Source: a virus
Strand: one strand, 5' to 3'
DNA length: 32,477 nucleotides
IMG/VR virus record: IMGVR_UViG_3300025276_000115
Location: 1 to 32,477 of that record
The stretch's first letter is position 1, and each line of letters starts with the position of its first letter. Made by a program: the position numbers and the translations under genes. Shown piece after piece: positions 1 to 31,434 of this stretch. The notes under the pieces were generated by a model. It had not been told where the DNA came from. It worked only from the letters and a program-made list of their open reading frames with translations, and searched no databases.

Positions 1-1536
1 TTCTTGATCTGAATATGCTTTAGTTACAACTGTACCTGATGCAGATTCTGTTACAGCTAGTAGTACTGCTTGTTTAGCACTAATAGCTTTTCCTACACCA
101 GTAATTTTTTGTGCGTCAGTAACATTAATGTCGCCACCACCTGTAATTGCTATACCAGCAGTTGATGTAAGTGCCATGTCATTAGTGGAACTAATTATCT
201 TACCATTGATATTAATTTCATCAATTTGTAGTATAGTAAGTGTACCAATTTGAGTTAATTCTAGTGCCTTTGAAATATTAACTAGTGAATCGTTTGTAAG
301 TTTATCAACTCCTCCAATTTTATAACTTTGAGTAGTGTTTAATAAATCAAAGTTTACATTTGTTGTAAATGCATTTGTAGAGTTCATCCAAAGTATATCT
401 TTACTACCTTGCTTACTGTTAACTTGTATTCCTGATATGTCTGCTTGAGCGTCTGTAAGTTCAGTACTATCGTTCATTACACCGATTTCAATTACTTTAT
501 CTTCAACTCTAAGTGTAGCAACATCTAGTGCAACTCTAGTGCCTTCAACAATTAAGTTACCAGTACATCGAATGTCGCCTTCAACGTCTAGTGTGTATGC
601 TGGCAATCTGTTAGTTGTAAATATACCAACTTTTGCAGCACTTGAATCTATATAAATTGCATCTACTGAGATAGCGCCAAACGTGCTTGACTTAACTCGT
701 AAGCTTAAATCGTGATCTGTAAGTTGGTTCTCAATATAAAATCTAGGACCAACAACTTTTTGTACGTTATTTTGTGATAAGCCAATTGTTAGGCCACCTG
801 AGTTTTGTATTGTTAAATTACCAGTAGTAATGCCGTTTGCTGTTGAAGGAAGGAAACTATCAGCAGTTCTAACTACGCCGCCTGCTGTAACAAGTGCGTT
901 TGATGAATCTGAAATACCTCTGAATTTAAAATTAGCAGTATCAATTACGTTGTACCCAACTTTAATAATCCCTGTTGGGTTTGTTGCTGTAACTAAACTG
1001 AGTACTCGTTGTGCATAAATTGGAGTAAACTCAATATTACTAATTACTGCTGAAAGTGTGCCACCAACATATAAGTTTACAACAGTACGTGAACGACTCT
1101 GTGAGTCAAGTATACTTCCTATTTCAAATCCGCTTTTTCCTTGTGTTAATGTATACTGTGGACCCATTAACATTAAGTCAGTACCATCATACGCATATAC
1201 TTGATTATTTAGACTGTCAATCCATAAGTCGCCTGCTACCATTTGCGGTTGTGTAGTTTGTACAATTGGGCCGCCACTTGATTTCCATACAGTGCCATTA
1301 TACACTTGTAATCTTTGACTAGTACTGTCCCACCATAGTTGCCCAGTTAAAGGATTACTAGGTGCAGCAGTGTTACTAAAGTTTTCTAATAGCTTAATAA
1401 AGTTTTCGTTAAAATATTCTCCGTATCCGGTATAGTTTCTACCAACTAACACAAGGTTAGTGCTATTTGTATCAATCTGCCCGTCAATTAAGTCTGTTAG
1501 CAGTGTACCGTCTGTCTTGTTTAGTTGATAGCTCAT
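1..1536 (-). CDS. Tail fibre-like protein, C-terminus cut off by the window edge
   Basis: An open frame of 512 codons runs from the ATG at 1536 to base 1 without a stop, so the C-terminus lies outside the window. The N-terminus (about residues 30-80) contains NENFIKLLENFSNTAAP, then GQLWWDST and VYNGTVW. This is the same module as in the neighbouring 684-residue protein, so the two genes are paralogous in that part. Around residues 310-350 it reads LDVEGDIRCTGNLIVEGT followed by TLRVEDKVIEIG, a stretch I associate with long phage fibre proteins before their distal domains. Glycine-rich beta segments follow. The ATG lies one base after the stop codon of the upstream gene, which suggests coupled translation. 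It is probably a virion fibre involved in host recognition. The receptor-binding tip is not visible, so a collar or self-cleaving C-terminus cannot be assessed. Confidence 0.8.
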   Translation of the reverse strand, partial: MSYQLNKTDGTLLTDLIDGQIDTNSTNLVLVGRNYTGYGEYFNENFIKLLENFSNTAAPSNPLTGQLWWDSTSQRLQVYNGTVWKSSGGPIVQTTQPQMVAGDLWIDSLNNQVYAYDGTDLMLMGPQYTLTQGKSGFEIGSILDSQSRSRTVVNLYVGGTLSAVISNIEFTPIYAQRVLSLVTATNPTGIIKVGYNVIDTANFKFRGISDSSNALVTAGGVVRTADSFLPSTANGITTGNLTIQNSGGLTIGLSQNNVQKVVGPRFYIENQLTDHDLSLRVKSSTFGAISVDAIYIDSSAAKVGIFTTNRLPAYTLDVEGDIRCTGNLIVEGTRVALDVATLRVEDKVIEIGVMNDSTELTDAQADISGIQVNSKQGSKDILWMNSTNAFTTNVNFDLLNTTQSYKIGGVDKLTNDSLVNISKALELTQIGTLTILQIDEININGKIISSTNDMALTSTAGIAITGGGDINVTDAQKITGVGKAISAKQAVLLAVTESASGTVVTKAYSDQE

Positions 1537-1537
1537 G

Positions 1538-3592
1538 TTATTCTCCGGTGTAGATGATATAGTTGACTGCTAAGAAAGGATTCATAACATTAAAAGGCGT
1601 ACCTAGTGTTGCTTCTGTTTTAACACCTCCACTAGATGCAATGCCCTGTGTTCCACCTAATCCTGGTTCAATTGGAAGTGAAATAGCGTTGTCATCAACA
1701 GGTTCACCTGCTCCAACTCTAATTCCGTAGAACTGTGTACCACTAGCACCTTCTAAGTCATGTTCATGTTCTGGTAAATTATCAGTTCCAATTGAATATG
1801 TTTCTGATCCTGCGTTACCGCCTATTGCGTCAGCAGCAATATTTGTTACTCTGTTTGCACTTGGACCGCCCATATTATCAAGGCCTAATCCCATTCTGCC
1901 TCTAAAGTCTGGCAATGTAAATAAGCTAACACCATTATCTGACACTAAACTAGCATCTTTAAAGTTGTGCGATATAGCTAACCATAATGTATTAAAGTCT
2001 GATTTTTTAACTTCAGTTCCATCACAAAATAGCCAACCTGTAGGTGCTTCACTACCTCCAAATGCCATCATTGATCCTGCTGGTACTAGCGGAATTGTTT
2101 TTAAGAAGTTACGTTTTGTAATTCTATAGACACCTGTTGTTCCTGATGTTACATTTAATAATAATTCGTCTGCGTTACCGGCATCGTAAGTAATAGTCTT
2201 GTTACTAATAAAGCTATCAGCAATACTTACAGCAAAAGTTTTTGTGCTTCCGCCTGTTTGTCCGTCGAATTCAAAGCTTGACGGGCTAACATCTCCACTT
2301 AAAGCAAATGTTGTAGCACTTGCTAGCCTGTCAGCACTTCCTGCTCTTCCACTAACTGTTCCGCTTACATTACCTTGCATATTTCCAAAGAATGTAGTAG
2401 CATGGATTTGGTCATACTTAGCAACTGCTGTGCCAATGTTTCTTGTGCCTGATCCATCAGGAGTAACATTACCTGTTTGTAATATGCCGCCAATATCAAC
2501 GTTGCCGCCTACGTATGCATTAAGTGCAATACCAATTCCACCTGCAGTTCTAATACTACCTGTACCAATTGAAGAAGCATTATCAACACTAGTAACTTGT
2601 AAAATACCAGTTTCTGCTACGCCAGTTTTAGGAGATATCTTAATATTGCCGTTAACGTCAATTGCTTGCTCAGGTGCGCTGTTATTAAATCCAACATTAC
2701 CTTCACTGTTAACACTTAACACAGTTGGAGTTAAGTTACCATTACGCATTCTAATGTCAATACTTGATCCACTAGTGTTATGTTGTATAACTCCAGTTTC
2801 TCCATCAATACCTAAACTTAACTGGCCGCCTGTTCCAATTTTAATTCCATCATTACTTTTAACACTTAACTGATAGTCTGTTGTACTTGCAGCGTTGCCT
2901 CTTAAGAAGTTACTTGCTGGAATTGAAACGCTACCAACTACTAATGCTTCTGCTTTTTCAGCAGTGCCATAATATTTTAATGCTTGTACGCCAACAATTG
3001 CTTCATCAGCAATATTCATACCAGGATTAATTCCAGTTCTAAAACCTTTTATCGATGTCTTTGGTACAAACGTTTGGCTACTAATAATAATTACTGGCTT
3101 GTCTTCAACTTTAATTGATAATACATTATAAGTTATATCATCAATTCCTACAATTGCTTGTGCTGTTGCACCAGTTAAAAGTCCATCACTAAAGTCTGGT
3201 CCTACTAATACCCAAGCACTGCCTGTAAACAAATATAATTGCTGACTTTCTGTGTTAACCCACAAGTCGCCTGCACTACTGTTTGCTACTGCTGGTGCTG
3301 CACTGGCTTTTTTAAGTCCGCCACTTGCAACCCAGTTTGTGCCGTCATAAACCTTTAGCTGATCAACTCCTGCTGTTGTGTCGTACCACAATTGACCTTC
3401 TACTGGACGCAATGGTGCAGTAGTGTTTGCAAAATTTTCTAGTATATGCAAGAAGTTTTCATTTACTGCTTGACCGTATGCTGTTGTTCCTCTGCCTGGA
3501 AAACTTAAAGTTGTTTCTGTGTTTAGTGCATTGTCTTCAACAATTATTGTACCTTTGTTAACAGTATCTGTGTAATTTATTGTATATGGCAT
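1538..3592 (-). CDS. Tail-collar fibre protein (gp12-like C-terminus)
   Basis: This 684-residue protein starts with a module (about residues 35-95) containing NENFLHILENFANTTAP, GQLWYDTT and VYDGTNW, shared with the next gene. A second GDLWVNTESQQLYLFTG segment follows. The middle (about 220-490) is repetitive, glycine- and serine-rich beta structure with a FFGNMQGNVSGTVSGRAGSA stretch typical of fibre shafts. From about residue 499 a phage tail collar domain is recognisable: PAGSMMAFGGSEAPTGWLFC, then LFTLPDFRGRMGLGLDN. The tip carries an HEH motif near residue 609; in T4 short tail fibre gp12 and long fibre gp37, HxH motifs bind metal ions. It is therefore likely a trimeric fibre or adhesin at the baseplate edge. 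The start ATG at 3592 has a GGGA ribosome site overlapping the stop of the 200-residue gene 10 bases upstream. The collar domain is a strong call; the exact equivalence to T4 gp12 is an inference. Confidence 0.85.
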   Translation of the reverse strand: MPYTINYTDTVNKGTIIVEDNALNTETTLSFPGRGTTAYGQAVNENFLHILENFANTTAPLRPVEGQLWYDTTAGVDQLKVYDGTNWVASGGLKKASAAPAVANSSAGDLWVNTESQQLYLFTGSAWVLVGPDFSDGLLTGATAQAIVGIDDITYNVLSIKVEDKPVIIISSQTFVPKTSIKGFRTGINPGMNIADEAIVGVQALKYYGTAEKAEALVVGSVSIPASNFLRGNAASTTDYQLSVKSNDGIKIGTGGQLSLGIDGETGVIQHNTSGSSIDIRMRNGNLTPTVLSVNSEGNVGFNNSAPEQAIDVNGNIKISPKTGVAETGILQVTSVDNASSIGTGSIRTAGGIGIALNAYVGGNVDIGGILQTGNVTPDGSGTRNIGTAVAKYDQIHATTFFGNMQGNVSGTVSGRAGSADRLASATTFALSGDVSPSSFEFDGQTGGSTKTFAVSIADSFISNKTITYDAGNADELLLNVTSGTTGVYRITKRNFLKTIPLVPAGSMMAFGGSEAPTGWLFCDGTEVKKSDFNTLWLAISHNFKDASLVSDNGVSLFTLPDFRGRMGLGLDNMGGPSANRVTNIAADAIGGNAGSETYSIGTDNLPEHEHDLEGASGTQFYGIRVGAGEPVDDNAISLPIEPGLGGTQGIASSGGVKTEATLGTPFNVMNPFLAVNYIIYTGE

Positions 3593-3602
3593 ATTTTATC
3601 CC

Positions 3603-4205
3603 TTACCCTGCCAAACTTTGTACACGCACAGTGTAGTCAATTTGTATTAATCTGTTAAGCGACTTCTGTACAGGATGGAAAATAACATGTGTCATTAATC
3701 TTCCTGTTCCAGCAGCACTGTAGCTACGTAATCCTAACTCATCAAACACATACGGACTGTCTGTTGCACTTGCAGTATCAAATGCATCTTGTCCATTTGG
3801 TTCGCCGTAATCAAGTAAACAACTTACAACAATATCGGTATAATTTGTACCCGCTACATGTCGGGTTTCAAGTTTATTTCTTGCAGGGTCAGTATTATTT
3901 ACACTTCTGTCGTCAACAACTTTAGTATAGGTTTGGTTGTATAGACTTGCATTAGTTCCTGTGCTATTAGGTGTTAAGTATGTAATAATACCAGTTGGAT
4001 CAACGCTTGTTCCGCCGTTTCCAAAGCTCATTTCATATATAAATCCTGATCCAGCGTTTGCTAAACTATCTGCTAGTGCAATACTCATATTCTCATAATG
4101 GATTGCATTGCGCTTGTCAATGTATACCTTTTGTGATTCAGGGTCAAATATCTTAATATGTCCCTGAACTAGTACTCCGTTTGTGTCTTGCATGTTATCG
4201 CTCAT
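3603..4205 (-). CDS. Conserved-looking virion protein of unknown role, between giant protein and fibre genes
   Basis: A 200-residue protein with no signal peptide or membrane segment. I do not recognise a named family. Its N-terminal part reads VQGHIKIFDPESQKVYIDKR and the centre contains FIYEMSFGNGGTSVDPTG, a compact beta-rich pattern. The C-terminus ends in a beta-strand-like IQIDYTVRVQSLAG. Its position between the giant protein and two fibre genes suggests a baseplate-to-fibre adaptor or a small structural protein, but this is inferred only from context. The ATG at 4205 is preceded by AGGA (4214-4217, minus strand) and by an ATAAATA late-promoter-like motif that overlaps the stop codon of the giant gene. 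It may therefore start its own late transcript together with the fibre genes. The gap to the giant gene is 21 bases. Confidence 0.75.
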   Translation of the reverse strand: MSDNMQDTNGVLVQGHIKIFDPESQKVYIDKRNAIHYENMSIALADSLANAGSGFIYEMSFGNGGTSVDPTGIITYLTPNSTGTNASLYNQTYTKVVDDRSVNNTDPARNKLETRHVAGTNYTDIVVSCLLDYGEPNGQDAFDTASATDSPYVFDELGLRSYSAAGTGRLMTHVIFHPVQKSLNRLIQIDYTVRVQSLAG

Positions 4206-4223: not shown

Positions 4224-4230
4224 TATTTAT
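4224..4230 (-). promoter_or_regulatory. Late promoter-like motif before the 200-residue protein and fibre genes
   Basis: ATAAATA on the minus strand, followed by CAGTAT and AGGA. It overlaps the TAA stop codon of the giant gene. Apart from its first base it matches the core of the T4 late box. The same motif-GTAT-AGGA layout occurs before the first gene of the operon. Confidence 0.5.
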
Positions 4231-7200
4231 TCAGGTAGCTCAGATGTTCCTGCACGTAAGAATCTCGCAATACTATTTTCTGTATCACCTAATGATTCTC
4301 CGAATGTTGTCCAACTTTGTCCTACTTTTTTCACTACTGTTACTCTTGTATCTGCTGCTGGTGTTGCAAGTAATGTTATTGCATTAGTATTTGCATCAAA
4401 TGTAAAGTCTGCAACAACAATAGCATCGCCTTTTGGGCTATCTAGTGCTGTTAGCGGATTAAATATATCTAATGCAGTCTTACGTAGACGTGTTCCTGCA
4501 ACAAATACTTCAATTTCGTTTATTGATGCAACTGGGTAACTAACTGTAAACACACTTGTTGCACCTGTTGCAGTAGCATTATATGCTAATGTACTATCTT
4601 TATACGGAACAGTTTTACTTATGTTCTGATCGTACACCTTAGTATTTAATGCGTAAGTATTCTTAACTCCAGTACCTAATGTTCCTCTACGTAACTGACG
4701 TAGTAATACACCTTCTTTAACAAAGTACTCAATGCGCTCGCCTTCAATGAAAATTACACCTGGTAAGTTCTGTGATTTATTTGGTTCTGCTAATGTACTT
4801 GCATCATCTAGTTCAATTCTTATATCGTAATAGTTTAATGCTTTAGCTAGTTTTGCGCTCGATGTATCAAGACGCTTAAAGTGTGTTCTATTCAACATGT
4901 CTTTAAACTGTCTAAATGCAAACTTAGGCACACTTACTGGAGCAGTAAAGTGAATAATGTCTATAACATCATTTGCTGCCGGCTGTCTAACCAACTGTAC
5001 TTTTAACTTATCATTAGTTACAAAGTAGTCAACACTAGGTGTTAATAGCTCACTATTTACACTTACCCATACATACTGTGCATCAACGGCAGGTTTACGT
5101 AAAGTAATTTCACCAACTGTTAATCTGTTGTATATATCGTAATTTACATCATCAGATGTTAATGTTGTTCTTGTTACAACATCATAATTAATGCGCTCAA
5201 GTCCTAATATATCGTGATTTGTAAATTGTATTATTTCTACTGTTGCGGTACTTGAAGGCGCAGTGTCTAATGTTACTGTAGTACCACTAACTCTGTAATC
5301 GCCATCTGTAATTATATACATTTCAAGTAAGTCGCCTGGTACGCCAATTTCATCTGCAAGTACAATACTACTATTCGCAGGCTCAAAGCGCCATTGTGTA
5401 GGAGTTGTAATTTCAATTCCGTTTACAAATACCTTAGTATCTGCAACATCTAAACTACCCTGCGGCATTTGGAATGTTTCTAATGCAAATTCACGCTGAC
5501 TGTTTGCTGGAATTGTATACTGTATATTGTATCCTGCATTTAATATTGCATTATCTACTTTAACAATAATATTATGTTCTGTAGGAATTGCATATAAAGG
5601 AGCACTTGCTAATGTAAACACTTTTTGTGCGCCGTTACCTATAAACGAATCTTTAGTAATTTGACTATAATTAACTTGTGCATTTGCTGAGAATACAGTA
5701 TAATTAATTACTGCTCCAGCACTTACTACTTGACTAAATCCAATAACAGTTTTAGTAGTAGATGCCGACTTAGATACTGTAACAATTTGTTGTACTCCGT
5801 TAATACTAGCGTACACGCTCACTCCTGCGGCCCAATCTACTGTAGTCTCAAATGCTGTGGTCGAACCGTCACCGGTAACTTGACCAAAGTCCAGTATGTT
5901 TTGTACGCCTTGTGCAACTGTTACAATACTAAGTTCTGCTCCTACTGTTGCTGTATTAAGTGTTACAGTGTTTGCAGCCCAATTAATTGTATAATCAGTT
6001 TGTGGTAATATAACATTAGCAACTTTTACAATAACTGCGTTACTACTATTTGGAGTAACACCTAAGTTATAAGTTAATACGCTATCCATAATATAGTTTT
6101 GGCTGTTAATAACACCTTGACCTGCACTATCTCTCGTAAATACTTTAATATCTAATGTGTCAAGTACTTGTCCAGGAATTACTTCTTCAGGACCGCTGCT
6201 AGTTGTAGGAGTAACAAAGCCGTCACCATCTACAATAATTTCTTCTGCTGTGATTCCTTTTGCAGTTGCATATGCTAAGTCGCCTCCGCTAAGTGCTGTA
6301 TCAAAACTAGTTGTGTCAGGCACAACACTACCATCGCTGGATGTCTTTCTTACAACAAACACGTCGCCGTCTAATAAACTTATTCCTAAGTCTTGTACAT
6401 ATATTATATTAGTAGTACCGTCTCCTGTGATACTAGGTGTAATAGCATTTACGTTTGCTCCAGGATTGTTTGCGTCTACATAATTAGGATCGTCTATTCT
6501 TACTCCGTTTTTATAAAGGTTATATACAATGCCTGTTGCAAGAGGAGCACTTAATTCTACTGCAATTGTAGAACCATCTGCTGTAAATACTTGATCTTCA
6601 AAAGTGTTATCAAATGTATCCCAATTATCAGTATACCATCCAGCAGTATCAAAACCACTCGGTCCTGCAAAGTTAAAGCTGCGTACTTCAACACCACCAT
6701 AGTCAATACCAGTCATTAGCTGTGCTAAATCATTGCCGTACATGCCAGCAATCGGTGCATATGCAAGATTAACTCTATCTGCTGCATTTAACATACTTAA
6801 TGGTATATTATAGTCTACTTTTATAACTGCGTTTAGTGCTGGTGCAGTTGCAAATACAATCTTTCCTTGCTCTCTACTATATGTAACATCGTTATTTTCA
6901 ATATTTACAAATGTATACTTACTACGTAACTGTAAAATATTATCAATATACACACTTACTTTCTTAGTATCAAGATTCATTGGCCATTCTAAGAATATTC
7001 TCGATTCAAATCCTGTGCCTGCAAATGTCTCTGACTTAGCAAGTGTACTAAATGTAAACGTGCCAGTAATTCTATCAAACTTAATTTTAACACTTGGACT
7101 TCTCACAACTCCGTTTCCAAGCACTGCTGTTGCTGTTGGAACTATTCCTGTTGATGTTTGGGAGCCAGCAATTACTACTGTCGGAGCACTTGTATATCCA

Positions 7201-10200
7201 CTTCCTGGATTAGTAACTACAATTTTAGTAATTACACCGTAACCTAAATATGCCGTTGCCGTTGCGCCAGTTCCACCGCCGCCTGTTAAGTTAACAGTAG
7301 GTTCAAACGTAAATCCTGAGCCGCCAGTGCCTATTTTAATTCCAGTTATTTGATATCCGTGGTTATCTTTCCAATTTTTGCGAGGATATGTAGTAGTGTC
7401 GAGATTTTGATCTACAATTATACCGTTTACAATAGTTGCTTTACTTGGTTCAATTTGCTTAGTAACTGAATTATACGCTTGCGATAAATCAAAGTCACTA
7501 ATCGAACTGTTTGTAGGATCTACTGCTGCGTATTCACTAACAAATTCTCTTATCTTTGTTGAATATGGTTTAAACTCTTCAACAAATTCTTGATAGCTTG
7601 CTAAGTTATCGTTATTAAATGTTATGTCTTGTAAGCTTAATGATCCTCTGATATGCTTTGACTTTACAAAACTAGTCTTAAACATCCAGTCAACTGATTT
7701 CTGCTCTGAAAGTACATAGCGTAAAGCTGACATAAACAATTGATTATATTCAACTTCTAAGTTTCCTATAAAGATTTTATCTCTAATTGCTTTAAGTATA
7801 ATTCTTAATTCAAGATTTGGATTATTATCATAAAAGTTACTATCAAAACTGCGATTATCAAATCCTACAGTATTCTTTGAATAATCATACAATGTATCTT
7901 TAAACTGTATTGTACCGTTTTCACGTCCAACAGTATTATAGTTAACTGTATAATCTTCAGTAACCTGCGAGTCTACTTTTTGTAGTAATAGCCAGCCGCC
8001 GGCACCTACTGTTTTAATTTTTACAATACTACCAATAGAATTGGCTAAGCCTGCTAACTGATATGATCCAACTATTGTATCGTTAATATTAGTAAACTGA
8101 TTAAATCCAGTTGCATACCAATCAACATAGTCCCAATACAGCGATACATTGTAACTTTGTAGTTTTCTTCTATACCACGCAGTACCATTCCATGAATATA
8201 ATGCCCACTTACTTTGTATACTTTCGTCTGCGTTAACTAATACAGTGACTGGTCTAACTGTTATAGTAGTACTACTGTTATAACCACTGCCAGCGTTAGT
8301 AATTTTAATGCTTGTTAGTTGACCTAGATTATTAATAGTAATATCAAATTCAGCGCCAGTACCAGCACCGTTAATTTTAAAGGTTGGTACAACTTTGTAG
8401 CCGCGTCCTGCATTAGTAATATCAATTCTTGCTATTCTACCATTAGTAATAATAGGTGTTAGTACAGCAGAAGTAATTTTATTTGTGCTTACAAATGAAA
8501 GTTCTGCTAACGTGTCTGTTACTATATCATACTCTTTAGATAGTAATGTAGGCTTAGAATCTTGATTGGATAATGAAGAAATATCATATTCGTCAACTAC
8601 AAGATTTTCTGCTAATTTTAAATTTATTCTTTCAATAGTCTGCTTTAGTGCTTCAAATCTATTAACAAACATACTTTGTCTTGGACGATTCTGTACACCA
8701 TAACGGTTTTTAATAGTTATTGTAGGATCAGGAACAGTTCTGTTATTGTCGTCAAAGCCAATTAAACTATCAAACCATTTGCGCTCTATATCGGAGTCAG
8801 GCTTACTTGTACTTAACCCATCTGATATTAACTTATATTGACTATGCAAGTTTTGTGTTTTCTTAGGACCAGTTGAATATTTAATATTCAATACTAAATC
8901 ATCACTATCAATAAGTGAATCAAAGTTATTAACAACAAATTTGTTTTTAGAAAGCAAACTTACAAACGGATAACCCTGTGTTCTTGGATTTTCTATTAGT
9001 GCAGCAATATCTGTAATACTTAATTTTCTATTTTCCATAACAGGAATTGTAACTTTATTAACTACCCAAAAGTAATATCTATTAGTAAACGTCTTACTAA
9101 CTTCGTCATAAATTATTTCTGTTGAATATTTTGTGTCACCGAATAAACTGGCTCCACTAATTCCAGCAGCAGTTCCGTTAGGAGTATCTGAAACGCTATC
9201 CCATATACTTGGAATAAAATCACTTTGCACCCATTCAAAAATATCTATCCTTGCTCCTGGTGTTAGTTTATTCCAAGTATTCTTTTGGAATGCCGTGGTA
9301 CCTTGGTACGGATGGGCAAATTTAGCACTGCTAATATTCCACCATACTTGACCAACATGTGTAGTTGTCCATGCTCTATTCGGATCAACTGAATTATCAG
9401 CAAGTGCTCCTGTATTATATACAGCAGGATCGAATGGAGTTTTAAATGTAATTTCTTGGTCGGCAGGTCCAGCAATTTTGCCTTGTATTGGATCAATATA
9501 ATCAACATACGTTACGATTCTATTTTCACGCTTGTTATACAAGAACATGCCGCGGATATTATCTACGTCAACTGGAGTAATGCCATCACTAATAACACTC
9601 CAGGCAAATGTTGTTGCATTTTTTCTAAAGTCAACTATTGATCCTTTGTAGCCAGCAAAGTCATCAGTTCCGCCTGATCTCGCACTTGTTAGCTGATCAG
9701 GCATTCCGATATAAACGTGGTTTCCGTTAGTATAAATGTTCTTGCCAAACGTAGTTTGTGTTAACGAATATGTAAACTGCTCTGAATATATTAAGTTATT
9801 ATTAATATTTTCATAAACATATACAGCTCCTTTATCTAGTTTAATATTCTTAAAGTTAGTAAACAAGTTATCAAACGTAGTCGCTGTATCGTCTGTTGCA
9901 GTAAATGCACTAATGTCAAACGTAGTTGGTATTGTTTGGTCGCCATTTAAACTAGATACAACTAAGTTATCAGTTCCGTATGATAGTCCAAAGCCAAAGC
10001 CTTCGCTTTCTTCGTTGTTTGGTGGTGTAAGTGTTTGAGTTAATGTAAATGTTCCTGCTGTTTGTGTGTAAACATAAACAACACCTTGATTAATTTTACT
10101 AACATCAGATAGCATTGAGCTTACAGCAATTTGTGTTCCTGCTGGATTTAAACTAACTTTGTCAGCCCAGCCTGTAATATTATCAGGTGCATTTATTGTT

Positions 10201-13200
10201 TGGCTTAACGTAAACTTATCATTAGTTACACGGTATATTGCAAGCTTAGTATTTACTGTACTCGTAGTATCTGTTTGTTTTGTTGTTACAACTAATACTT
10301 GTGCATCGGCACTAATATCAAAACTGTTACTAAATTCTAATATATTTTCAATTGGATCAAATACCGATTCATTGTAAAATGCATTTGCTGTTAGGTTTGG
10401 TAAGTACCCCAAGTAATCAATATTAGTGCTTACTGTTGCCCAGGAAACGTTTGAAGCACTTGGTACTGCTGCGCTTACTGCTATATTAGTTTGGGCTTCC
10501 CATAGTGCATTACTTTGTACAACTATATTTCCTTTCTTATAGGTATACGAATTATCAAAGTTGCCGCGATAGTTATCGTCTTTAGCTTGCTTCCAGCTTA
10601 TTTTGTTCCAGTAAATTGGATCAAGAATAACATTTTGGCCTGCTGTTACTGCTTTGCGACAAATATAGTAATCATCTTTATATATTATAACATCGTCTAC
10701 AACATAAGCTGATATTTTATATTCGCCTTTAAAACTATCAGTTACTGCAACTCCGTGTCTAAATATTTCAATTGCTCCAGGATGCACTCTGCGTCCGGTA
10801 GAATCAGTTTCGCCGGCACTAACAACACTATCGCTTGCAACTAGAAGTGTATAGTAATTTCCTGTTTGTACTATTGCAACTTTAGATCCAAATTTTCTAT
10901 TTGCAGCTCTATGCTCTGATGTAAATGTATCTTGGAATCTATAAGTGCCGTTACGCAATCTTCTATAGATAGAAAATGCACCTTCATCTGCTAATACTGG
11001 AGATGTTCCAGTAAGTGCTGCTGGTATATTATATACTTGTGTATAATCTTTATTTAAACTGTAAGGAGGGTTTTGTACGCGCTGTACACCAGATTCAGTT
11101 GTTTCATCAAAGAACCAATATTCCTCATCTGTTATTAACGGAGTAGCAACAACATCAAAGTTGCCAACTTTTTCGTATACAACTAACTTGCCAATTAATG
11201 CTGTTCCTAACACAATGCCATTGTTTACATCTGTTACTGTGCCTATTTTGCGAGATACATCAGTAGCTCCACGTAGTGCAGTGTTTGCTCTACGGAGGAT
11301 TTGATAGCGACCAATATTTGATAGTTCATTCCAGGCGCCTGTAGTACCGTCTGTATTTGCAACAATTTTTAGATAGACTCTAACACTAGTAAAGTTACGC
11401 TGCATAAACATTACTTCAGCACTGCTAGATGTAATACTAGTTAATGCTAATCCGCCTTGGCCGTCTCTAGGAATTTGAACATCTTCAATTATGTCTCCAA
11501 CTTGTGGTTCGTATGCAAACCCTTGGAAATCAAATTCTGTAAGAGTAAAATCTACGTAGCCGTCCCATAAGTCAACAATTGTCTGTTGCTTGTTTAAAAT
11601 AGCGTATGAAAATCCAGCACTTGTAACATCAATTACTCTGTTATCAAGGTTATATAATCTAAATTCTTGCACAGCTCCGTTAGTTAATGTGTCAGTAAAT
11701 GATTTTGCAGCTCGTGCTACCCATTTATTACTAGGCAGATCACGTTCGGTACCATCCTGAGCATCTGCGCCTGATGGATCGCCTCTATATGATAACTGGC
11801 TAATAAAACTAGCTTGGTTTTTCTTAGTTACATATACTCCGATACTACCAACAGTGTCTTGAATATTAGAATAATTATTAAGCGCACGGGCAGATCCTTG
11901 GAGTTTAACATCAGCGTAAACTAATCCACGTCCTGCGTCATAATATATACCATCGTTTGAATAACTAAAGCCTGTATTAATATACCAAAAGCCGCCAACC
12001 GCAACTGTTGTACTGTACGTCGACTCTTCTGTATATGCTCCTACTAATTCAATTTCATTAACATATAAATTACCAGTAATACCAAATACACCGTTTGTAT
12101 TTTTAACATATACTACTGCACTGTCATTACGTGTACTTGTATATGTTACTTCAGCACTACCAGTGTCAGTCGAAACTATAGCTCCTACAACTGGAATTGA
12201 TACAAAGGTATCAATAAAAAATACATGATCAATTTTTTCAACAATTGTATGTTGTTGATTTATAAATGATGGTGTTATTTCTGAAATTGCTCCATTAAAT
12301 GGAAGATAGTTATCTAATGTAGGATATGCATAACTACGTTGATTCCACGCTAAGTTAATTGTATCGCCAGCGGTTGTTCCAAGGTACATGTCTGTAGGAG
12401 CGCGTACTAACAAGTGGCTTACTGTATTATTTGCTAATCCTGGATCGCCTGCAACTAAAAGATTTAGTACCGTGCTATCAGCATCTGCACTACTTGCAAT
12501 GTTTATATATGTGTCGAATGTACTAAATGGCTGGTTAGCTACTTGAGGAAGTATTCCTCTATTTGCTTTCCATAAACTTTCTCTATAACGTACAATATCA
12601 CTTTTAATATAAGTTGCATCGCCTTGGAAATCAAATGTACTTGCGCCAGTCGATGCGTCTGTTTTATATGCTAGTTTAGTTTTAATATTACTTGCCTGAG
12701 GTATACCTACAATAAGATATTCGCCATCAGGCGACACTGCAATACTTTTACCAAAGTCTGCATCTGCGATATTAAATAAATCGTTATTATCAAGTTTTAT
12801 TTCTTGGTCTAGTAGTAAGTTAGATTGTTCTCTAGTTCTTCTATAGACTGATACTTTTCCGTTTATATCATTCGGTGATGATACAAACACGTTATTATTA
12901 TTTGCAGTTATAGCAACACTATCACTAAATCCTTGATCAGTACTGTCGTACAATGACGGATTTGTAATTGATTGAGAATTTAAATAAACAGGATCATTTT
13001 CTAATACAGCCCATTCATTAATGTATGTATCTACCCATAATCGCTGTTTAGGATATATCTCTTGATTTGTGGCTGCGTTAATTCCAGCGATGTTACTAAC
13101 TCGTACAGTTCGTAATACAGCTAGTGCAAATGACTGTTCTTCAAAATCAATTATTTCGTTATCTAATGGAACTCGTATTTGTATAGTATTAAGATTAATA

Positions 13201-16200
13201 TTATCTACTTCATATAATCCGTTTATTGCATATGCATTTGCTCCTCGGATACCAACATAGTCGCCTTTGTATAATAATGCATCTGCCCACTTATCAAGTG
13301 TTATGTCTACTAGGCGCAATCCGTTATCTGCAACAGTAGTAGTAAGTGTCGAAACTATGTTAGCATTTACACTTGCTCTTACTAATTGCATAACAGTCCA
13401 GCTCTTATTATCTGTCTCAGTTATCCATATACTATTACCAAGATCAATTTGGTTAGTATCTACTGATGCAAGGTCTACTAAGTTTCCAACAATAAAGTCA
13501 ACATCGTCTTCGTTTGCATAACCAGCAGTTTTAATATATTCACTAGTTAACGTTTTAATAGGAAACGGCTCGCTTGTATAACCTTCTGGTCTATCATATA
13601 CATCCGTAGGTTTAATACGGAAAATTTTGTCATAGTTGCGGTTAGGTATTACATTTACAAGCTCAATAGCTTGCGGTGATTCTTGTATGTCTTCTTGTAT
13701 TAAGTTAAACTCAATTTGCTTCACATCATCTACTGCACCATAACGTCCAACTTGTATTGCCCACTCTTCGTAGAACTCTAAGTTATCAGACGTGTTGCCG
13801 AGCGCATTAAACAGCTTAGTAAACACATTCATAGTACCCTTGTCTGCAATTGCTCCTCTGTAAAACTTAAACTGACTTACATCGTCGTTAATAATATTAG
13901 CAAGATACTGGCGCTTTTGATATCCTATCAAATGCTGTGCCATTTTTTGCTGTTCGATATCAAAGCTGTCTGAATCTAAATCATAAAAGTCTGTAAACTG
14001 TGTAACTCTATAATCAAAGTTAGTCATTAACTGCGATACTGGTTTTTCATTTAATTGATACCAGTTAGTTGAATTAAAGTTTTGACTTCCGGACGCATTA
14101 AGTGTAGCTACATAATAATACTGCTTGTATTTTACAATGTCGCCAATCTTATAATCTTTCCACTGGGCCCAGTCGGTATATGACGCATCATCATATACAA
14201 ATCCAGGAATGTTTAATCCGCCGCGCCAGTCATCTGATCTATATCCATTAACTTTAATTCTGTCTTGTCTGTAGCCAGTACTCGGAGTGTAAATGGCATC
14301 ATTGAAGTCTGTTGTATTATCTAATAGTACAACATGCTCCTTTTGTACCAACGGAAGTGATACATGGTATAATCCTTCGTCAGTATCAACTGTTTCTAGG
14401 CCAAAGCTATTTTGATCTCTTAACAGACTGTTAAATTCTGAACTTAAAAATAGACCGTCTGCTTTATAGATACTGTACCCGTAAAAATCATCTTTGATAT
14501 TATCAACTATATGATAATCTCTTTTAAATTCTAATAAGTTTGCTCCAGGACTTAATGCAATTAACGCACTGTTTGCCCATCCTTGTGTTGTCCAGAATAA
14601 AAACTCCTTCGCTGCGTTAGGCCAATTTTCAACTACGTTTGACCCGCTAATAACATTTTCAAAACTAAATCCAATTGCTTGTTGACGCTGACTATAGCCT
14701 AATATAAAATCAACAACTTCTTGAGCATTACTAAGTCTGCTGCCGTATTGTAGCGTTTTAATTTCTTGAGTATAAAAGTCTTTCTTGAATTCAGCAGTTT
14801 TGCCGCCTTCAACTGGTAGCACAGGTAATTTAATTATATCTGTAGTATCAAAAGTTACACTACTTGTAAAAGAATTAATAACTCTATAAAAAGCATTGTT
14901 ATTTTGAATTACTTCACCACTTATATAAGCAGTATTACTATTCCACGGCTGGACCTTTTCTGCTATTCCGCCAACTGTTACTGTCGAACTAGTCGATCCT
15001 TCCTGCACATCATAATATTCAAAGTACGGCTTTTCTAAATTATATCCTCGTATAACATAACCTAGTTCAGCACGTTCTATAATCATACCACTGTAAATTG
15101 CAAGTTCAGTAGGACTACTAGTGTTTAGGAATACTTGATAGTTTTCCTGCGGGACAAATATTCCGCCTTGTGTTTGTTCTTGTGTAGGTGACCTACTATC
15201 AAGTATTAAATTAAATTTTTCTTTGCTAGTAAATCCAGCAACTTTAATACCTAGTTGGTTAGTAATTGTAGCTAGTTCTGTTTTGTATCCTTCATATACT
15301 GTTAGTATATCACTTGCTACTAGATTATAGATATAGTTTACTAAGCCAGAAGTAATAGTTCTTGTAGATGAATTAATAGTATTTGGTAATTTTAGATTCT
15401 TAATAACAACAGGCTTGTTTGTATCCTTATCAACCCATTGATTTGCTAAGTTTTTAGTTATCCTTGAAATATCAAATCCAAGACTCATAGTTTTGGCAGG
15501 CTTGTTAAGTAACATTGCTGTTAATACAGCAAAAGGATATTCTGAACTTCTGCTCCATGCATTTTCAATTGGCGATCTGTCACCAAATTTAAAGTTCTTT
15601 GTTGCACTACTTATTTGGAAGTTTTTAGCATATCGACTATCTAGTGGTGATAGTAGTTTACCGCTGCTTGCAACAGGAATAAAATTAGTTAAACCAGTAC
15701 GAGCATATTTAAGATCAATTCTTGTATTTTTAGGATCTGCAATTCGACCAGCTTCTAAATCTCTCCAAAGTACTAAGTTATCACCTGTATAAGGAGCCGG
15801 ACCATAAACTGTATTCCACCAGCTTGGCTTAGTTGTTAAGCCTAACATTTCCCAAGGATGAGTATGCGGACGGTCTGTATCAAATGCTCTTATATACACA
15901 CTTCTCCAAAATCCTGGATTTATATTTCCATCTGGAGATGTAGTATCTGAGTAGTTAAATGTCCAATTATTAGTTCTATCATAGAATGTATTATTAGTAA
16001 ACGTTTCATTATTTAAATTTTGCTGTAACCATTGCTGGAAGTCTCCAAGCATTGTGTTATCGATTTCAGCTTTTGTAAATTCATTAACTCTAAACTCGCC
16101 GCCAATAAAGGCATTAATATCTAATCTATCAGTTGAATATTCAGCTTTAATATTATTAAAGATTCTATTTTCTAATTCTAATAACAGTTCATCTCTAAAG

Positions 16201-19200
16201 TCTTTATAAGCTTTAATGTAACTACCATCGTGTCCTCTAATAAATGCAACACCAATTGGAAACTCGTCAATTTCAATATTATCAGTTCCAGCAATAGTTG
16301 CACCAGTTGCTGGAATATATAATATCTTATTCATTCCTTTAAATGTATAGCCTTTCGATGCTGCGCCAGTGCCAGCTGCCACTTTAGTTGTGTAGACTGG
16401 ATAGAACCAACCTCTAGTACCAGTTGCACTATCTTCGCCGTATACTTTAAACGGGCCTGTTGAAACTGGCTCAGTTGCAAGTACAGTATCGTCAATTGTT
16501 AATTCTGGATAGTACTTAGGATACAATCCTAGTTTTGTAGGAGTAGGAGCAATAAAGCTGCCATCAGTATTATCATATTCGTGTATTTCGATTAGATCGT
16601 TTTCTTTTTGTCCTGCGGCAATCGAAACGTACCCAGCTACATTAAAATTATAATCCTTAAGATATGTTAGTTGTACATTATTTAAATATATTGTTATTCC
16701 TGTCGAACTTAATACAGATAAACTAAAAGTATTAGTAATTGGATAATCTGTTACTCTTGCATCTAATACTGTATAATCAAGTTTGTTAGAAGGTCCATTA
16801 GGTATCATATCTGAGAAGTAAAATGGCTGCGACTTTATCTTATCATTATTAATTTCTTTTAACACTTTATCTACGTGGCCTTTGACTGGACCGTCATACC
16901 CTAAATTAGTAGCTACATCTAAAAATGTTTTCTTAAATCTAGAATACTCTTTTTTGGAAAACTTTAAAGCCTTTATAATATTATAGCTTTTGTTAGTTAT
17001 ATGATATAACGGTAGGTTAATTGGACCGCTGTGTTTAACAAACCGTTTTCCGTAATGATCTAAGTCGCCCAAGTCTCTTAGGTTGCTAGATCCAAGGTAT
17101 GTGCCAGTATAGTTTGGAATATCTTCCAACATACTATCAACATGATCAACTACTTCTCCGAGTGTAAATTGCTTAACATCATCATTTAACGGGTTACGCT
17201 CCAAGTTATATGGAAATTCGTAATAGCCATTAGAATTTTTTATAGTTTTAGTGTCTGTTTTAATTTTAACAATATCGCCAACAGTTAAATCTTTATTAAA
17301 TATAATAGCTGCGTTGTTATTAGTTTTATCAACTGTATAGTTTGTGGTAATTATCTGTAATTTATTATTAACAAATACTACAATTTTTAAATCAGTTAAA
17401 GTACTCGAGTTATTATACGCATCAATTACAAATTTATTAACTTGTAAGTCAGTAGCTGCATGTTCTTTTATAACAAACTGCTTACTTTTTGTAGGAGTAC
17501 TACTAAAGCCGTTTACATAAGAATATGCAGTAAGTGATTTAAATTTCTTTAAGTATCCACTGCTAATTGACTGCGTAAATACTTCTGTATCTGTTTGATA
17601 GTTAAACGAATCGTTTAATAAATTAAAATCAAAGACAATATCGCCTGAGTTTACAATAGTCTTATAACTTAATGCAAATCCTAATTCAGTATCTACTACT
17701 CCTTCTCCGGCTGCATATGAGAATAATTTAGATCCTTTAAATGTAGTTGATCCGTAACTTGTAATATCACTAAAGCTATTTCCGTTTACATCAAATACAT
17801 CAAATAATGGTGCTTGATTACGTGTAGTTTTTTCTTGTGCAGCAGCCCACTTTAAATTAGTAAAATGGTAACTTTTGCCTGCGTTTTTTACGCCTTGTGT
17901 AACTAATACTGTTTCGAGATCTAACGGTAAAGTATCAGTAGTTTCAATTAAACTAATTTGTCTTACATTACTAATTTTAACAAATTTAACTTGATAAATT
18001 TTACCACTAACACGGATGTCAGTATCTGCTGTAAACATAATACGCATGTTATCTGCAAGATTGACTCCGTCGATGTTGTAGCCTGTTTGTCCTTCAATAG
18101 TACTAAACACATCTTTAGTAAATGTATCTATTAAGTCAACATCTTGTTTTGCAGATGCTCCGAAGTTATTTAATTTTATGCCTGCTTCGAATTCAATAAT
18201 AGGACGCTTGGCGCGGTTGGCTTCATCTACATCTCTAGGTAGCCCGTTATGTTCAAAACTTTTTAATATTACATCTTTGTGATGCCATCTATTATATCGA
18301 CTCCATGCGTTTCTATCAGGCGTAGCCCTGTTAATAACAATATAATCTTGATTAGTTGCATAAGCTGTGGCATCTGTAAACGGTAATGTATCAAAGTTAT
18401 CACTATCGTATGCCACACGCTTTGTATCACTATATGCTGCTGGAATAATTAAATCTTGATCTTTAATTAATTTAATTTTAGAGCCAACGCCTTCAACATA
18501 CCAAGAATTAGTTTCGTATGTAACAGGTAGTATATCACCTTGGAATTTAATTTTCATTCCGTTTGATAAAACTACTCCGTTTGCAGTTGTATAAGTTTTC
18601 TTACCTATTATTTCTTGATCTATATTAAGGAATGTATTTTCCTCAATATCATAAACTCTAATAGCACTGCTAGTATCTACTGAATTTTTACTAATATAAT
18701 ATAATACATTAGGTGCGTTAGATGGAATAGTAAACTCAATGGTGCCTTTTTCAATGTATGTATCTGTAGTAACATTACCTAGTTCGTCATACATTGTTAT
18801 ACCATCAGTATAAAGTGTACTAACGTTAGTATCAACACTTACTCCTGGAGTAAACGTTCTACTAAGGGCAATTGATATCGGATGTCCTAAAGTGTCAATT
18901 GCAAAACGATATGTTTGTCCTCGGTAAAGTTTTAATGTTGGATTAACTGTAATTCCTTCATTAAATACATAAGCAATATTGTCGCCTTGGTCTTGAGTAG
19001 TAACAGTATAGGTACTAACAACATCTCTACTTTGCCCTCTAACTTGTATACTAAGTGGGCCGTTTGGCATCCAGTAATACTCACGGAAGTTTACAAATTT
19101 ATCCCAATCAATGTTTGGGTTCCATGCATAGGTTTCTTGGTTATTTAAACGACTATGGTTATCTGTATTTGCTCCGTATACATTTAACTGACCCATATAA

Positions 19201-19520
19201 TCATTATAGTCTTTATAAAAAGTTACATTATCGTATAAGTCTTTAATAACAGTAGCAGGTTCTAATTGATAGTTAGTCCTATTAACTGTTACATCGTCGA
19301 TATAATTATCTGTAGCTTTGTATGCTTTGGCAGTTTTTCTGCCGTAATAACCATTTACTTTTTCAGCAACGCCAGGTTGTATAAGCTGGTCTAGTGTACC
19401 TTGTAGGAACTTTTTATTTGCTTGTGTTCTAAAAAACTTTGGTAGAAAATCACTTGAAGTAATTTTATTATTCTGGCCCGGAACAGGTAGGGCACTTTCG
19501 TTTTGATCATTCTTAGCCAT
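4227..19520 (-). CDS. Giant 5097-residue modular baseplate/tail structural protein
   Basis: One uninterrupted frame of 15.3 kb (about 560 kDa). Its start overlaps the gp6 stop codon (TAATG) and a GGAGG site lies 12 bases upstream, so it is translated with gp6. Approximate map by residue: 1-170, a baseplate-like N-terminus with [18 protein letters not shown]; 170-290, a small beta domain with [11 protein letters not shown] and GHPISI; about 770-930, a conserved-looking segment with LERNPLND; about 930-1010, a fibre-type beta repeat; about 1200-1260, a tryptophan-rich segment with [14 protein letters not shown]; 1523, 1783, 2293, 2945 and 2990, five carbohydrate-binding-like modules; about 1830-1950, a mostly helical segment with [15 protein letters not shown]; about 2190-3300, a seven-bladed beta-propeller with insertions; about 3680-3770 and 4050-4150, glycine-rich GSGY repeats; about 4300-4870, fibre-type beta repeats. 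It occupies the place of T4 genes 7 to 11 after gene 6. A structural role is likely; a gp7-like N-terminus is only an inference. Confidence 0.85.
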
Positions 19521-22500
19521 TAGTAACTGTAGCCTCCACCTGAGTTGCTGGCGTTTCCGCCTGAGTTGCTGGCGTTAGCCAAGCCGCCGCCTGTTGCTGC
19601 TGTTGTAGTTGTAGTTGTAGTTGATGCACTGCTTGTAATTCCTGCTGTTGAAGCTGTTGACACTGTGTTAAGCACTGTGCCTGTTGCTTGTAAGTTTGTT
19701 GCAGTAATCTGATCTATTGTTTCGATATCAGTCACTTTGGCTGCGCTTGCAAATATTTCATCTGGCTCACTCTTAATTTCAAATAGGCTACCAAACGATT
19801 GTGTTGTTTGGCGCGGTACTATTAGTATACTTACCAGTTTCGGAGACAGCTGGTTTATGATATAGGCACTAAGCTCTTGGAAGTAAAAAGTCTCGCCAAA
19901 GTCCCAGTTTTCAATATCAAAGAATCTATTAATTGATTCAACAATGTCTGATTTAAGTTCATTATCGTTAGTAACAATATTTGTATTTTTAACAATTTTA
20001 AATTTAACTTGTAAATCAGGAGTTGCTTTGTCACCAAATAGTATCTTATACTTTACAGGATGATAAATTATTTCATCGCTAATACTTTTTATTTTGTTAA
20101 TTGCAGTTCCGTAACTTCTAAACAATTCGTCATTGCTAGGCGGCTTAGGATTAACTATAGTTGCTCCACTAATATATTGTTTTACTTGTGTATCATACGT
20201 TTTCGATAAAATGTAAGTGTCAATAATATTACTTGCACTTGGGTCAATTCTATATCCGCTATCAGCAACGTGAATATAATGGAATTTTAAATCTGCTCTG
20301 CCAAAGTATGCTTTATAGTCTGTATTAATTGCTGTATTGTTTAGTGTTTTATTAAGCTTTCTAAATATAGCTTCGTTAATTAAGTAAAATATTTGTCCTT
20401 CAACTCTAGTACTATAAGGTGCAATAGCTGCTTCGTTTTGTACTACAATAATTTCAGCAGTTGTGTTTGCAAAATATTTAAAATCTTCTACACCGTCAGT
20501 TGTTGTGTATTTCTTTTGAAATACTAGTTTGTCTTTTGTAAGAATAGTTGTATCTTCTTCACCTACTATTTGCTCAAAAATATCAGGATCGTCAACAACA
20601 CCGTCATCGTCTAAATCAATAAACTGAATTTGTATTTTACGACTATCCAAGTATCCTTCTGTATCTCGATATGCATCTGTAATAGTCCAATTAAAGTCTC
20701 TTGTAAATGGAGTTAATGCGCCTGGTTTACGGTTAATATTTAATATATCAATTTTGTCTCTAACAATTTGTCCAGTAGTCGGATCATACACTTTATCAGC
20801 ACTGTCAAAGAAGAATCTAATTTCGTCTGCACTTTCCATTACATATCTTAAATTGCGATATGTAATAGTATATTTTTCGCCATCAGTTTTAAAGTATAAC
20901 ATCCAACTAGCATCTAAATTTGCGCCAGTGATATCACCCGCTTTACCTGTAGCAAATGTAGTTAATGTATTAATATTTTCGTCTAATATTAGTTTCCACT
21001 GCCTGTCATACTGGTCATAACGTAATGCAAAGTCGTGGTAGTTAAATGCCTGGTCAACTAACTGAGTTTTAATATCATTAATTAATACTTTAGAATAATT
21101 AGGTATAACCTGTTGTAATATTGCTCCTGTAGGAATAATATCATTAAGTACTATAGGAGCAATACCATCTTCGTCTATTACAGTTCCATTGCCTACTACA
21201 GACACTACCTTTGACCACTTATATGATGTTTTACCTAAATGATCACTTGCACCATCGGTCATTAAAGTACCATTAGGCATAAAGTGTTTACCTGTTGGAG
21301 CAACAAACTTTAACATTGTTCCAGCTTCTAATAAGCGCAAACTGTTTGCAGTAAATGTACCTACTGTATAAGAGTTGCTGTCAACATCTTGTAATAACCC
21401 TAATGATTGATTTGTGCTTGTAGTTGATTGTGCCCAAGTTGCGCCGAGGTCACTAACAATAATTTTTGGATACTTTGAAAAGTAAAAGTTTTGTGTGCTA
21501 ATATTACTTAAAATAGATTCAATAGTATTATATATTACACCTTCAATATCTGTTTGAGTTGCAAATGTAAATGTTTGTTTTTCATCAAACTCTTCTTTAT
21601 AAATTACACCGTCATCAGCAAACAGGCTAGTGTTTGAATATTTGCCGCTGGCGTCTTTCAAGTCAAAGAATCGACTTATACCACTCGAAATTCTATTTGA
21701 ACTTTTAGTCTTAATAATATCTTGACTAATTGCTAAAGGCCCAATATTATAATCTTCACCTGTAATTAATCTATTTTGTGTGTAATAAGTTGCAGGTGCA
21801 TTTTGCTTAATTTCTGCATTAGTTTCTGTTGCAGCACCGTTAGCTACAGTATAGTTTAATTTAAGTCCAATGGTAAGAGTTTGCGCTGTTCCATTTCTTG
21901 ACTGATATGGTATATCAATACTTACTGTACTAATTGCACTAGGAGTTATTACACTTCTTACGTTATTACTAGTTCTATAATATGCTCTAAAGTCTCCAGC
22001 TGGTAAATTACCAAATACGCCGTCACTAAACACTAAGTTAATTCTATCACCGATACGTGTAGTTACTGCAAATACATCTCTAGTTTTATTAAACAAACTA
22101 TTGTAGATAACATTGTTGCCTTCTGTAGAGTCAATTTTTGTCCATTCGTTGTTCTCATAGCCTGCGCTGTTTACTGAAAACAGCCAAACATCACTATCAT
22201 TAATATTCTGTGCATCAATCTGAACTGCTTGATTAGGTGTCGGATTAGCTACTGCAAAATCTCCTGTTTCAATCTTGCCCTGGCGGAAATGCATAAAGAA
22301 TCCTGTGTTAGTACTACCAGCTCCTTGACCATCATCTCTAAACAAAAATGCAGGACTGTTGCCTGGTAATGGTGCTTCTTCAATTATATCGTCTGTTGAT
22401 ATATCAGTACTTACTACTTCAAAACGTGTGGTTGTGCCTTCAATACGCTTAGTAAACGGATATACTGCTATACCAGTGTTTGTAGCATTTATGCGATATT

Positions 22501-23056
22501 TTTGTGTTTGTACATCTGCGATTAATGCAGACTTTAAAGGATTGCCAATTGAGTTCGACAACGGCAATGCTGAATTCATAATCTTAACAAACTGTTCAAA
22601 ATAGTTTGTGTTAGTTTGGTCATTCCACTTAACAGTAATTCCTGACATGTTTAAACCATTACTATCTAAAAGATTTTCAGTTGTTTTAATTGTATCGAAT
22701 TTAAGTAATCCGTTTGCTGCTTGATTACGCTTAGGATTATAAGACAGCATACGTGCTAAACGCAATACGCTTTCTCTGCGCTCTGCTGTTTCAAGGAAGT
22801 TTTCACGAGCGTTTAAATCAATACGGAATGATAAGTTTTGCCCAAGGAAAGCAATCATATCAATTAGCGCAAGATATTCACTTGACTCGATGTAATCGTT
22901 AAAGTCTTCTGGATAGTTTTGACGCAGATAATTAATCATTGTGCGTCTTAGATTATCAAAATCATAGCTTTGGAAATCAGCGTTTCTAAAACTTTGGTAT
23001 ATTCTTTTCCAGTCCTCAGCTACTAAGAGCCTCGACTGTCGATCATTTGCAGACAT
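19520..23056 (-). CDS. gp6: Baseplate wedge protein gp6 (gpJ-like)
   Basis: The 1178-residue protein opens with the pattern I know from T4-type gp6. [20 protein letters not shown] is followed by [20 protein letters not shown] (about residues 60-80) and [20 protein letters not shown]. gp6 dimers form the continuous ring that ties the six baseplate wedges together and control sheath contraction. T4 gp6 has about 660 residues, so this one is nearly twice as long; the extra length lies in the middle and C-terminal parts. Residues 814-825 form a canonical 12-residue EF-hand-type loop ([12 protein letters not shown]). The last 60 residues are low complexity: a run of seven threonines, then two copies of GGNASNS and a GGGYSY end. 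The ATG at 23056 has an AGGAAA site 7 bases upstream. The gene follows gp25, its usual partner, and its stop overlaps the start of the giant gene. Confidence 0.92.
19533..19537 (-). promoter_or_regulatory. Ribosome binding site of the giant gene inside the gp6 coding end
   Basis: GGAGG on the minus strand, 12 bases before the giant gene's ATG at 19520. It is formed by glycine codons of the gp6 repeat tail, so the low-complexity end of gp6 also serves as the translation signal of the next gene. Confidence 0.6.
19539..19576 (-). repeat. 21-base tandem repeat at the gp6 end
   Basis: Two identical 17-base copies (19539-19555 and 19560-19576) with a 21-base period encode GGNASNS twice at the gp6 C-terminus. 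The period is a multiple of three, so copy-number change would keep the frame. Confidence 0.85.
19602..19624 (-). repeat. Hexanucleotide microsatellite encoding a threonine run in gp6
   Basis: The plus strand repeats GTTGTA almost four times; on the coding strand this is alternating ACT and ACA, giving seven threonines. It is likely a flexible linker before the glycine-rich tail. Confidence 0.8.
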
Positions 23057-30215: not shown

Positions 30216-30512
30216 TTAGATTCCCAACGTAGTTCTGAGTGATGTTTCGTCAGGAATATATATCTTTGTTCCTGCTACAAAATCAAATACTGGATCTTTT
30301 AAAATATCTAAATTACGCTGGGCAAATACCCACCATAATTCTTTCCTACCGTATACAATGTGCGCAAGTAAATCAGGACGGTATGTATATTCAGGTGTTA
30401 TTGTAAACAAAATATCTTTACCGCTTATAGGTACTGGACGCGGTACCAATACATCTAAATATCCAGTAGAAGTTATCGGTGTAGCTGCATACGGACTTAA
30501 ACCATTACTCAT
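30216..30512 (-). CDS. gp53: Baseplate wedge protein gp53-type, LysM-like
   Basis: A 98-residue protein. Residues about 40-92 read PEYTYRPDLLAHIVYGRKEL, WWVFAQRN, then DPVFDFVAGTKIYIP. This is the LysM-like fold shared by T4 gp53 and small tail proteins of the X type, which sit at the tube-sheath junction of the inner baseplate and hold gp6 and gp25. T4 gp53 has about 196 residues, so this protein is roughly half that size and seems to consist of the LysM-like part alone with a short N-terminal arm. The ATG at 30512 overlaps the stop codon of the upstream gene (TAATG), with a GAGGGA site before it, indicating coupled translation. The neighbours (tube junction protein before, hub-like protein after) fit a baseplate role. 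Confidence 0.8.
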   Translation of the reverse strand: MSNGLSPYAATPITSTGYLDVLVPRPVPISGKDILFTITPEYTYRPDLLAHIVYGRKELWWVFAQRNLDILKDPVFDFVAGTKIYIPDETSLRTTLGI

Positions 30513-31411: not shown

Positions 31412-31424
31412 AAGTATAACAAAT

Positions 31425-31428: not shown

Positions 31429-31434
31429 AATAAT

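Follow-up and report, generated by a model that had tools for sequence, protein, structure and literature searches.

The wedge unit of phage baseplates, (gp6)2-gp7, comprises two gp6 chains and a partner, which is gpI in P2 and gp17 in XM1. The XM1 partner is an ortholog of T4 gp7 with only 242 aa and binds tail spikes (PMC10457771). Far larger versions are encoded by cyanophages. P-HM2, with the gene order gp25-gp6-gp7-gp8, has a product annotated as gp7 of 4454 aa, and RN05-S carries a giant of 4337 aa in the same slot. Giants of the RN05-S type match T4 gp7 at the motif FYSSKGT (probability 95%, E = 4e-8), and phrog_2885, a 4179-column family of cyanophage giant gp7, is also matched by T4 gp7. 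The genes for gp8 and gp9/10 remain separate in RN05-S and ACG-2014a. A structural gene of ~6,065 codons follows gp6 in ACG-2014a (L335, KJ019076), exceeding the gene described below.

Jumbo phages harbor another set of giants, whose annotations go no further than “virion structural” or “hypothetical” protein. A single giant gene is present in the isolates PA5oct (3857 aa), Atu_ph07 (4449 aa), 121Q (3323 aa), SCTP-2 (3807 aa), Vibrio 2.275.O (3771 aa) and Phosso (4555 aa), and the family phrog_10938 (“virion structural protein”) includes PA5oct gp355, Atu_ph07 gp180, 121Q gp582, SCTP-2 gp140 and phAPEC6 gp245. PA5oct gp355 is located in the virion according to an ESI-MS/MS note in its record; phAPEC6 gp245 (381.9 kDa) was detected in virions with 17 peptides and is listed next after the “baseplate wedge” protein gp244 (PMC7247149).

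Here, we analyzed the entire record of a marine virus of bacteria, 32,477 bases in length (the window). Read on its minus strand, the window is a T4/P2-type baseplate block, whose run from spike to fibre follows the P2 gene order V-W-J-I-H:

30512-31351, minus strand: member of family phrog_12050
30216-30512, minus strand: gp53-type wedge protein (phrog_7145, E = 5e-23; phrog_1269)
27083-30214, minus strand: member of family phrog_11190
26084-27082, minus strand: 332-aa protein that matches no family
23570-26056, minus strand: hub/spike protein (hub/lysozyme) with a VgrG3-like C-terminal domain (phrog_13211; PF21277, E = 4e-26)
23115-23555, minus strand: gp25/gpW wedge protein (PF04965, above cut-off)
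19520-23056, minus strand: gp6-type baseplate wedge protein, 1178 aa (phrog_10646, E = 1.8e-295; phrog_219, E = 3e-20)
4227-19520, minus strand: giant protein of 5097 aa in the gp7/gpI slot, putatively of the virion (phrog_10938; tblastn to jumbo-phage virion proteins)
3603-4205, minus strand: 200-aa syntenic partner of the giant (phrog_11259, E = 1.8e-71)
1538-3592, minus strand: fibre protein with a tail-collar domain (PF07484, E = 2e-10)
1-1536, minus strand: another fibre-like protein, truncated where the record stops (its N-terminus belongs to phrog_15511 and phrog_14394, as does that of 1538-3592)

The VgrG3-like domain of the hub/spike protein is of the T6SS type. On the opposite strand, a divergent ORF lies beside the block (31423-32286, plus strand); a late sigma factor occupies the corresponding place in PA5oct and 121Q, and by this analogy the ORF may encode a gp55-type sigma factor.

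A first-pass annotation of this DNA had described a 15.3 kb frame that begins within the gp6 stop codon and is separated from the fibre genes by one small gene, and both features are confirmed. The ORF listing gives one frame of 5097 codons; the last base of the gp6 TAA is the first base of the giant's ATG (...AGTTACTAATGGCT...), and from gp6 to the fibre genes nearly all of the DNA is taken up by the giant, leaving just the 200-aa gene before the fibre gene at 1538-3592. The annotation had also raised the possibility of an assembly artefact, a chimeric frame built of several genes, for which the extreme length alone and an in-frame TGA in the giant of one related marine contig (L031/L095, near L031 position 8764) might speak; in L032, its closest relative, this position is not a stop. 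Scans of IMG/VR nevertheless recovered 66 complete frames homologous to the giant, distinct from each other and 4302-5345 aa long; almost all show the one-base gp6 overlap, and isolated, sequenced phages have the same architecture. Comparison with one relative, L007 (79% identical), yielded an overall dN/dS of ~0.13 with dN far below dS in each 300-codon bin; the giant frame is under purifying selection along its whole length. A search for tandem DNA repeats in the frame found none. These findings exclude the artefact for all practical purposes.

By sequence comparison, the giant belongs to the already known and widespread family phrog_10938, which it matches on three slices (E = 6e-177, 2e-63 and 5e-75); tblastn likewise matched it to jumbo-phage virion proteins, and at least 580 related stretches of the viral collection were matched in one scan. 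By analogy with the PA5oct and phAPEC6 homologues, it is presumably a virion protein. The gp25-gp6-giant block is present in the window, PA5oct, Atu_ph07, 121Q and Phosso; in PA5oct, as in the window, the ~200-aa gene and then fibre-type genes follow. Directly upstream of the giant in Salicola phage SCTP-2, in the place of gp6 in the relatives, lies gene 141 (L171:10609-19899; 3096 aa), which gave no significant BLAST match to the window gp6; gp6 may have been replaced in SCTP-2 or be very divergent.

The 200-aa gene travels with the giant. Homologues of phrog_11259 were identified in the giant-gene regions of five of the six named jumbo relatives (PA5oct, Atu_ph07, SCTP-2, Vibrio 2.275.O and Phosso), and none was found for 121Q. 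The protein in this place in PA5oct, gp357, was detected by mass spectrometry, while a search with the window protein gave no known fold or function. The two fibre proteins have an N-terminal module in common (GYGxxxNENFxxLLENF...GQLWxD), which recurs in more than 100 sequences from related loci and aligns, though without significance, with G-KINENF at the start of T4 gp9/gp10. Judged by its sequence, this module may be a baseplate anchor. Neither the 200-aa protein nor the N-termini of the fibres matched T4 gp8-gp12 or gp53 significantly.

Alignment of 26 relatives was used to map conservation along the giant. A core comprising residues 1-150, 400-900, 1100-1950, 3300-3650 and 3800-4050 is kept even at 23-29% identity. 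The main segments are as follows:

19071-19520, minus strand: conserved N-terminus, residues 1-150, with an LPxxFRT...FL..T motif, aligned in near and far relatives
15771-15911, minus strand: tryptophan-rich block, residues 1204-1250, with W/P/G columns invariant in 26 relatives including PA5oct, 121Q and SCTP-2
14856-14945, minus strand: CBM5/12-type (chitin-binding-like) module, residues 1526-1555 (PF02839, best relative E = 7e-8)
14109-14171, minus strand: further CBM5/12-like stretch, residues 1784-1804 (sub-threshold in Pfam, E = 0.0012)
13641-14039, minus strand: helical “KGT” core, residues 1828-1960, a putative gp7/P2 gpI-like wedge block
9621-13523, minus strand: length-variable middle, residues 2000-3300, with FG-GAP and CBM5/12 (from relatives' lengths and Pfam)
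7341-9623, minus strand: conserved C-terminal third, residues 3300-4060, kept in far relatives
8247-8453, minus strand: GSGY beta module, residues 3690-3758, common with the tailspike Dpo31 (E = 0.002)
7554-7616, minus strand: KPxxxKxR helix, residues 3969-3989, conjectured to be the other half of a gpI domain in two pieces
4617-4859, minus strand: module common with cyanophage giant gp7, residues 4888-4968 (hhalign E = 1.1e-5, probability 82%)

The tryptophan-rich segment near residue 1220 and the helical segment near 1830-1950, which had been picked out as conserved-looking from the window alone, indeed rank with the best-conserved segments of the family. The adhesion-type modules proposed alongside them are likewise supported, comprising CBM5/12, a putative FG-GAP region and a module common with tailspikes. 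Residues 1526-1555 resemble the chitinase A1 chitin-binding domain by profile and chitin-binding domains by fold (probability 1.00); the copy in the window does not reach the cut-off of Pfam, though relatives score up to E = 7e-8. Carbohydrate-binding and putative FG-GAP modules lie in or beside the length-variable parts. The middle region ranges from 211 aa in 121Q and 264 aa in PA5oct to 1440 aa in Atu_ph07. Among 22 members, 14 have FG-GAP_2 (best E = 5e-13) and 13 have CBM5/12 in this region; the FG-GAP_2 match in the window protein itself falls just under the cut-off (E = 1.4e-4). GSGY-type beta modules at residues 3690-3758 and 4057-4130 are repeats of several phage structural families; part of a tailspike depolymerase is similar to the first of them. 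The AF2 model of residues 3300-4300 (pLDDT 80.0, pTM 0.43) retrieved relatives of the giant family as its first matches in BFVD; its PDB matches, all with E above 0.001, were small beta domains from adhesins and phage tails. For the model of residues 1100-2060 (pLDDT 74.8), the convincing domain-sized Foldseek matches in the PDB were chitin-binding domains, together with two small chains from the baseplates of the Anabaena injection system and phage Milano.

We then turned to the KGT block, whose pattern FYxGxIxxKGT...EEWA...GxYG is kept in all jumbo relatives and in 64 of the 66 complete frames. The relation of the giant to gpI and gp7 was first suspected by eye and then tested; the KGT motif had itself prompted the suspicion, so the gpI test is not wholly independent of it. 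Using hhalign, 72 overlapping slices of the giant family were compared with a P2 gpI family profile, built on a diverse gpI set drawn from genomes because the gpI relatives in IMG/VR are too alike. The three slices that contain KGT occupied ranks 1-3 of 72 with scores of 25-27, the next slice scoring 17.8. The N-terminal half of gpI scored 26.6 against the KGT block, compared with a mean of 9.5 (SD 1.8, maximum 15.4) for 120 column shuffles. The KGT and EW positions fall in register, a 16-residue stretch of the giant that leads to EEWA being aligned with HKGTIGAIRRVVEPLG...EWW of gpI. The matched stretch covers only 20-30 columns, and because the alignments are so short, these comparisons give good support, not proof, for homology of the KGT block to P2 gpI (Tail_P2_I).

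T4 gp7 is linked to the giant less strongly and only indirectly. A combined T4 and cyanophage gp7 core scored 25.4 against the KGT slice, within the range of 120 shuffles (maximum 26.3), and direct sequence and profile comparisons of the giant with T4 gp7 revealed no significant similarity. HMMER searches with PF09684 over the relatives gave no match at the giant gene in any of them; such a match is not a strict defining feature, because T4, with its gp7, also fails PF09684 by HMMER. AF2 modeled the KGT helices with little confidence (pLDDT about 31-60), and the 50 best Foldseek matches of the 1100-2060 model include no wedge protein. A segment that needs gp6 in order to fold could give such low confidence, which proves nothing by itself. 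The C-terminal half of gpI scored best at residues 3969-3989 (14.3 versus 13.7 for the next slice, not significant), and both this KP-helix segment and the KGT segment contain low-confidence stretches when modeled apart. One might conceive of a single gpI-type domain split into a KGT half (1828-1960) and a C-terminal KP-helix half (3969-3989), with ~2,000 residues of glycan-binding modules looped out between them. We consider this arrangement unlikely; if true, receptor binding could possibly be passed directly to the (gp6)2-gp7 contraction switch.

The first-pass annotation had read the giant as one polypeptide that combines wedge and host-binding roles, arising by fusion or replacement of T4 genes 7, 8, 9, 10 and 11. 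The combination of roles agrees with the gp7 slot, the virion homologues, the gpI-like block and the adhesion modules; fusion or replacement is not supported. The latter idea draws on a gp6-fibre interval nearly filled by one gene, and on the records of six jumbo relatives (one partial), in which relatives of T4 gp7, gp8 or gp11 above cut-off were sought elsewhere and none was found. However, 400-residue slices compared by profile with T4 gp7-gp12, gp53 and gp5 gave nothing, the best being a gp10 alignment at 11% probability; no slice resembled gp8, gp9, gp10 or gp11. No GP11 domain was found in the giant and no match to PF07880 (gp9/10) in the window, and PF09215 (gp8) was absent from the window and the six relatives (one record partial). 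A weak gp9/10 match, below cut-off, occurs in the giant frame of one relative, G009 (E = 0.003). The proposed search for separate homologues gave a mixed outcome: gp9/10-type N-terminal domains do reside on other frames, in two marine relatives, and PA5oct has a gene annotated as gp10-like after the giant. In cyanophages whose gp7 is just as large, gp8 and gp9/10 are still encoded separately, and the size of the window protein therefore needs no absorbed genes. To our knowledge, P2-type phages are without gp8-gp11-type genes, so the absence of these genes needs no replacement either. Fusion or replacement of genes 7-11 is accordingly highly improbable.

A narrower version, in which gp7 absorbed gp8 (for instance as the C-terminal third) and left gp9-gp11 aside, is unlikely as well. 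It would account for a gp8 that is separate in cyanophages and found nowhere in the six jumbo relatives searched, and for a conserved C-terminal third without an assigned function; the gp8-related family phrog_438 also matches at residues 3690-3758. That “baseplate wedge” match was rejected as a gp8 domain, as it falls within the GSGY repeat module common with the tailspike; moreover, the T4 gp8 profile found no match, and no gp8 chain was named in the 50 best Foldseek matches of residues 3300-4300.

The giant might instead be purely an adhesin or fibre scaffold placed after gp6 and outside the wedge core, with the gp7 role filled elsewhere, for example by the 332-aa protein at 26084-27082. 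In its favour, much of the chain consists of beta modules, CBM and putative FG-GAP, and the KGT match is short. Several findings oppose it and together make a pure scaffold rather improbable: in almost every relative the giant gene overlaps gp6 by one base, the genes follow a P2-like order, all jumbo relatives keep the KGT block, and cyanophage giant gp7 provides a precedent. From the position of the gene directly after gp25 and gp6 (W-J-I order), together with the virion location of homologues and the gpI-like KGT block, we infer that the giant is a wedge protein. It is likely the third baseplate wedge subunit, of gp7/gpI type, greatly enlarged by inserted domains; the most likely composition is one such subunit with inserted CBM5/12, FG-GAP region and GSGY repeats, and the simplest reading of the locus is a P2-like plan, gpW-gpJ-gpI-fibre, with a giant gpI/gp7.

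In a wedge subunit of this kind, the KGT block would pack with two gp6 chains in the wedge core and thereby anchor the giant in each wedge, probably with six copies per virion. The rest of the chain, ~5,000 residues and about 560 kDa per copy, would form the baseplate periphery and hold the separate fibre proteins. Its weak glycan-binding modules may touch host surface glycans before contraction, and such surface contact could be relayed to the wedge. Placement as gp7/gpI would supply a function for a protein that ranks among the largest structural ones in jumbo phages.

Compared with known systems, the giant is closest to the members of phrog_10938, with homology over most of its length and the same place after gp6 in most of them; it is longer (5097 aa versus 3323-4555 aa in the six examined), and the best stretch reaches 23-29% identity. 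With T4 gp7, it has in common a place after gp6 with an overlapping start, and the helical, KGI-containing segment of gp7 (643-758) is the corresponding block, in a protein of 1032 aa. P2 gpI (PF09684) and XM1 gp17 resemble it in the order spike-gp25-gp6-X-fibre and in a KGT helix and ensuing EW strand that align in register, yet comprise merely 176 and 242 aa against 5097. Cyanophage giant gp7 differs in that KGT lies near the N-terminus (residue ~200 in RN05-S versus 1894 in the window protein), that little other similarity is detectable and that the genome has a separate gp8; it is alike in its slot after gp25-gp6, its KGT core motif, its size and an IEGERIEYF...RRGTLGT module, located near the C-terminus of the window protein. 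These comparisons suggest that very large wedge proteins, in the window family and in cyanophages, grow by module insertion rather than by gene fusion.
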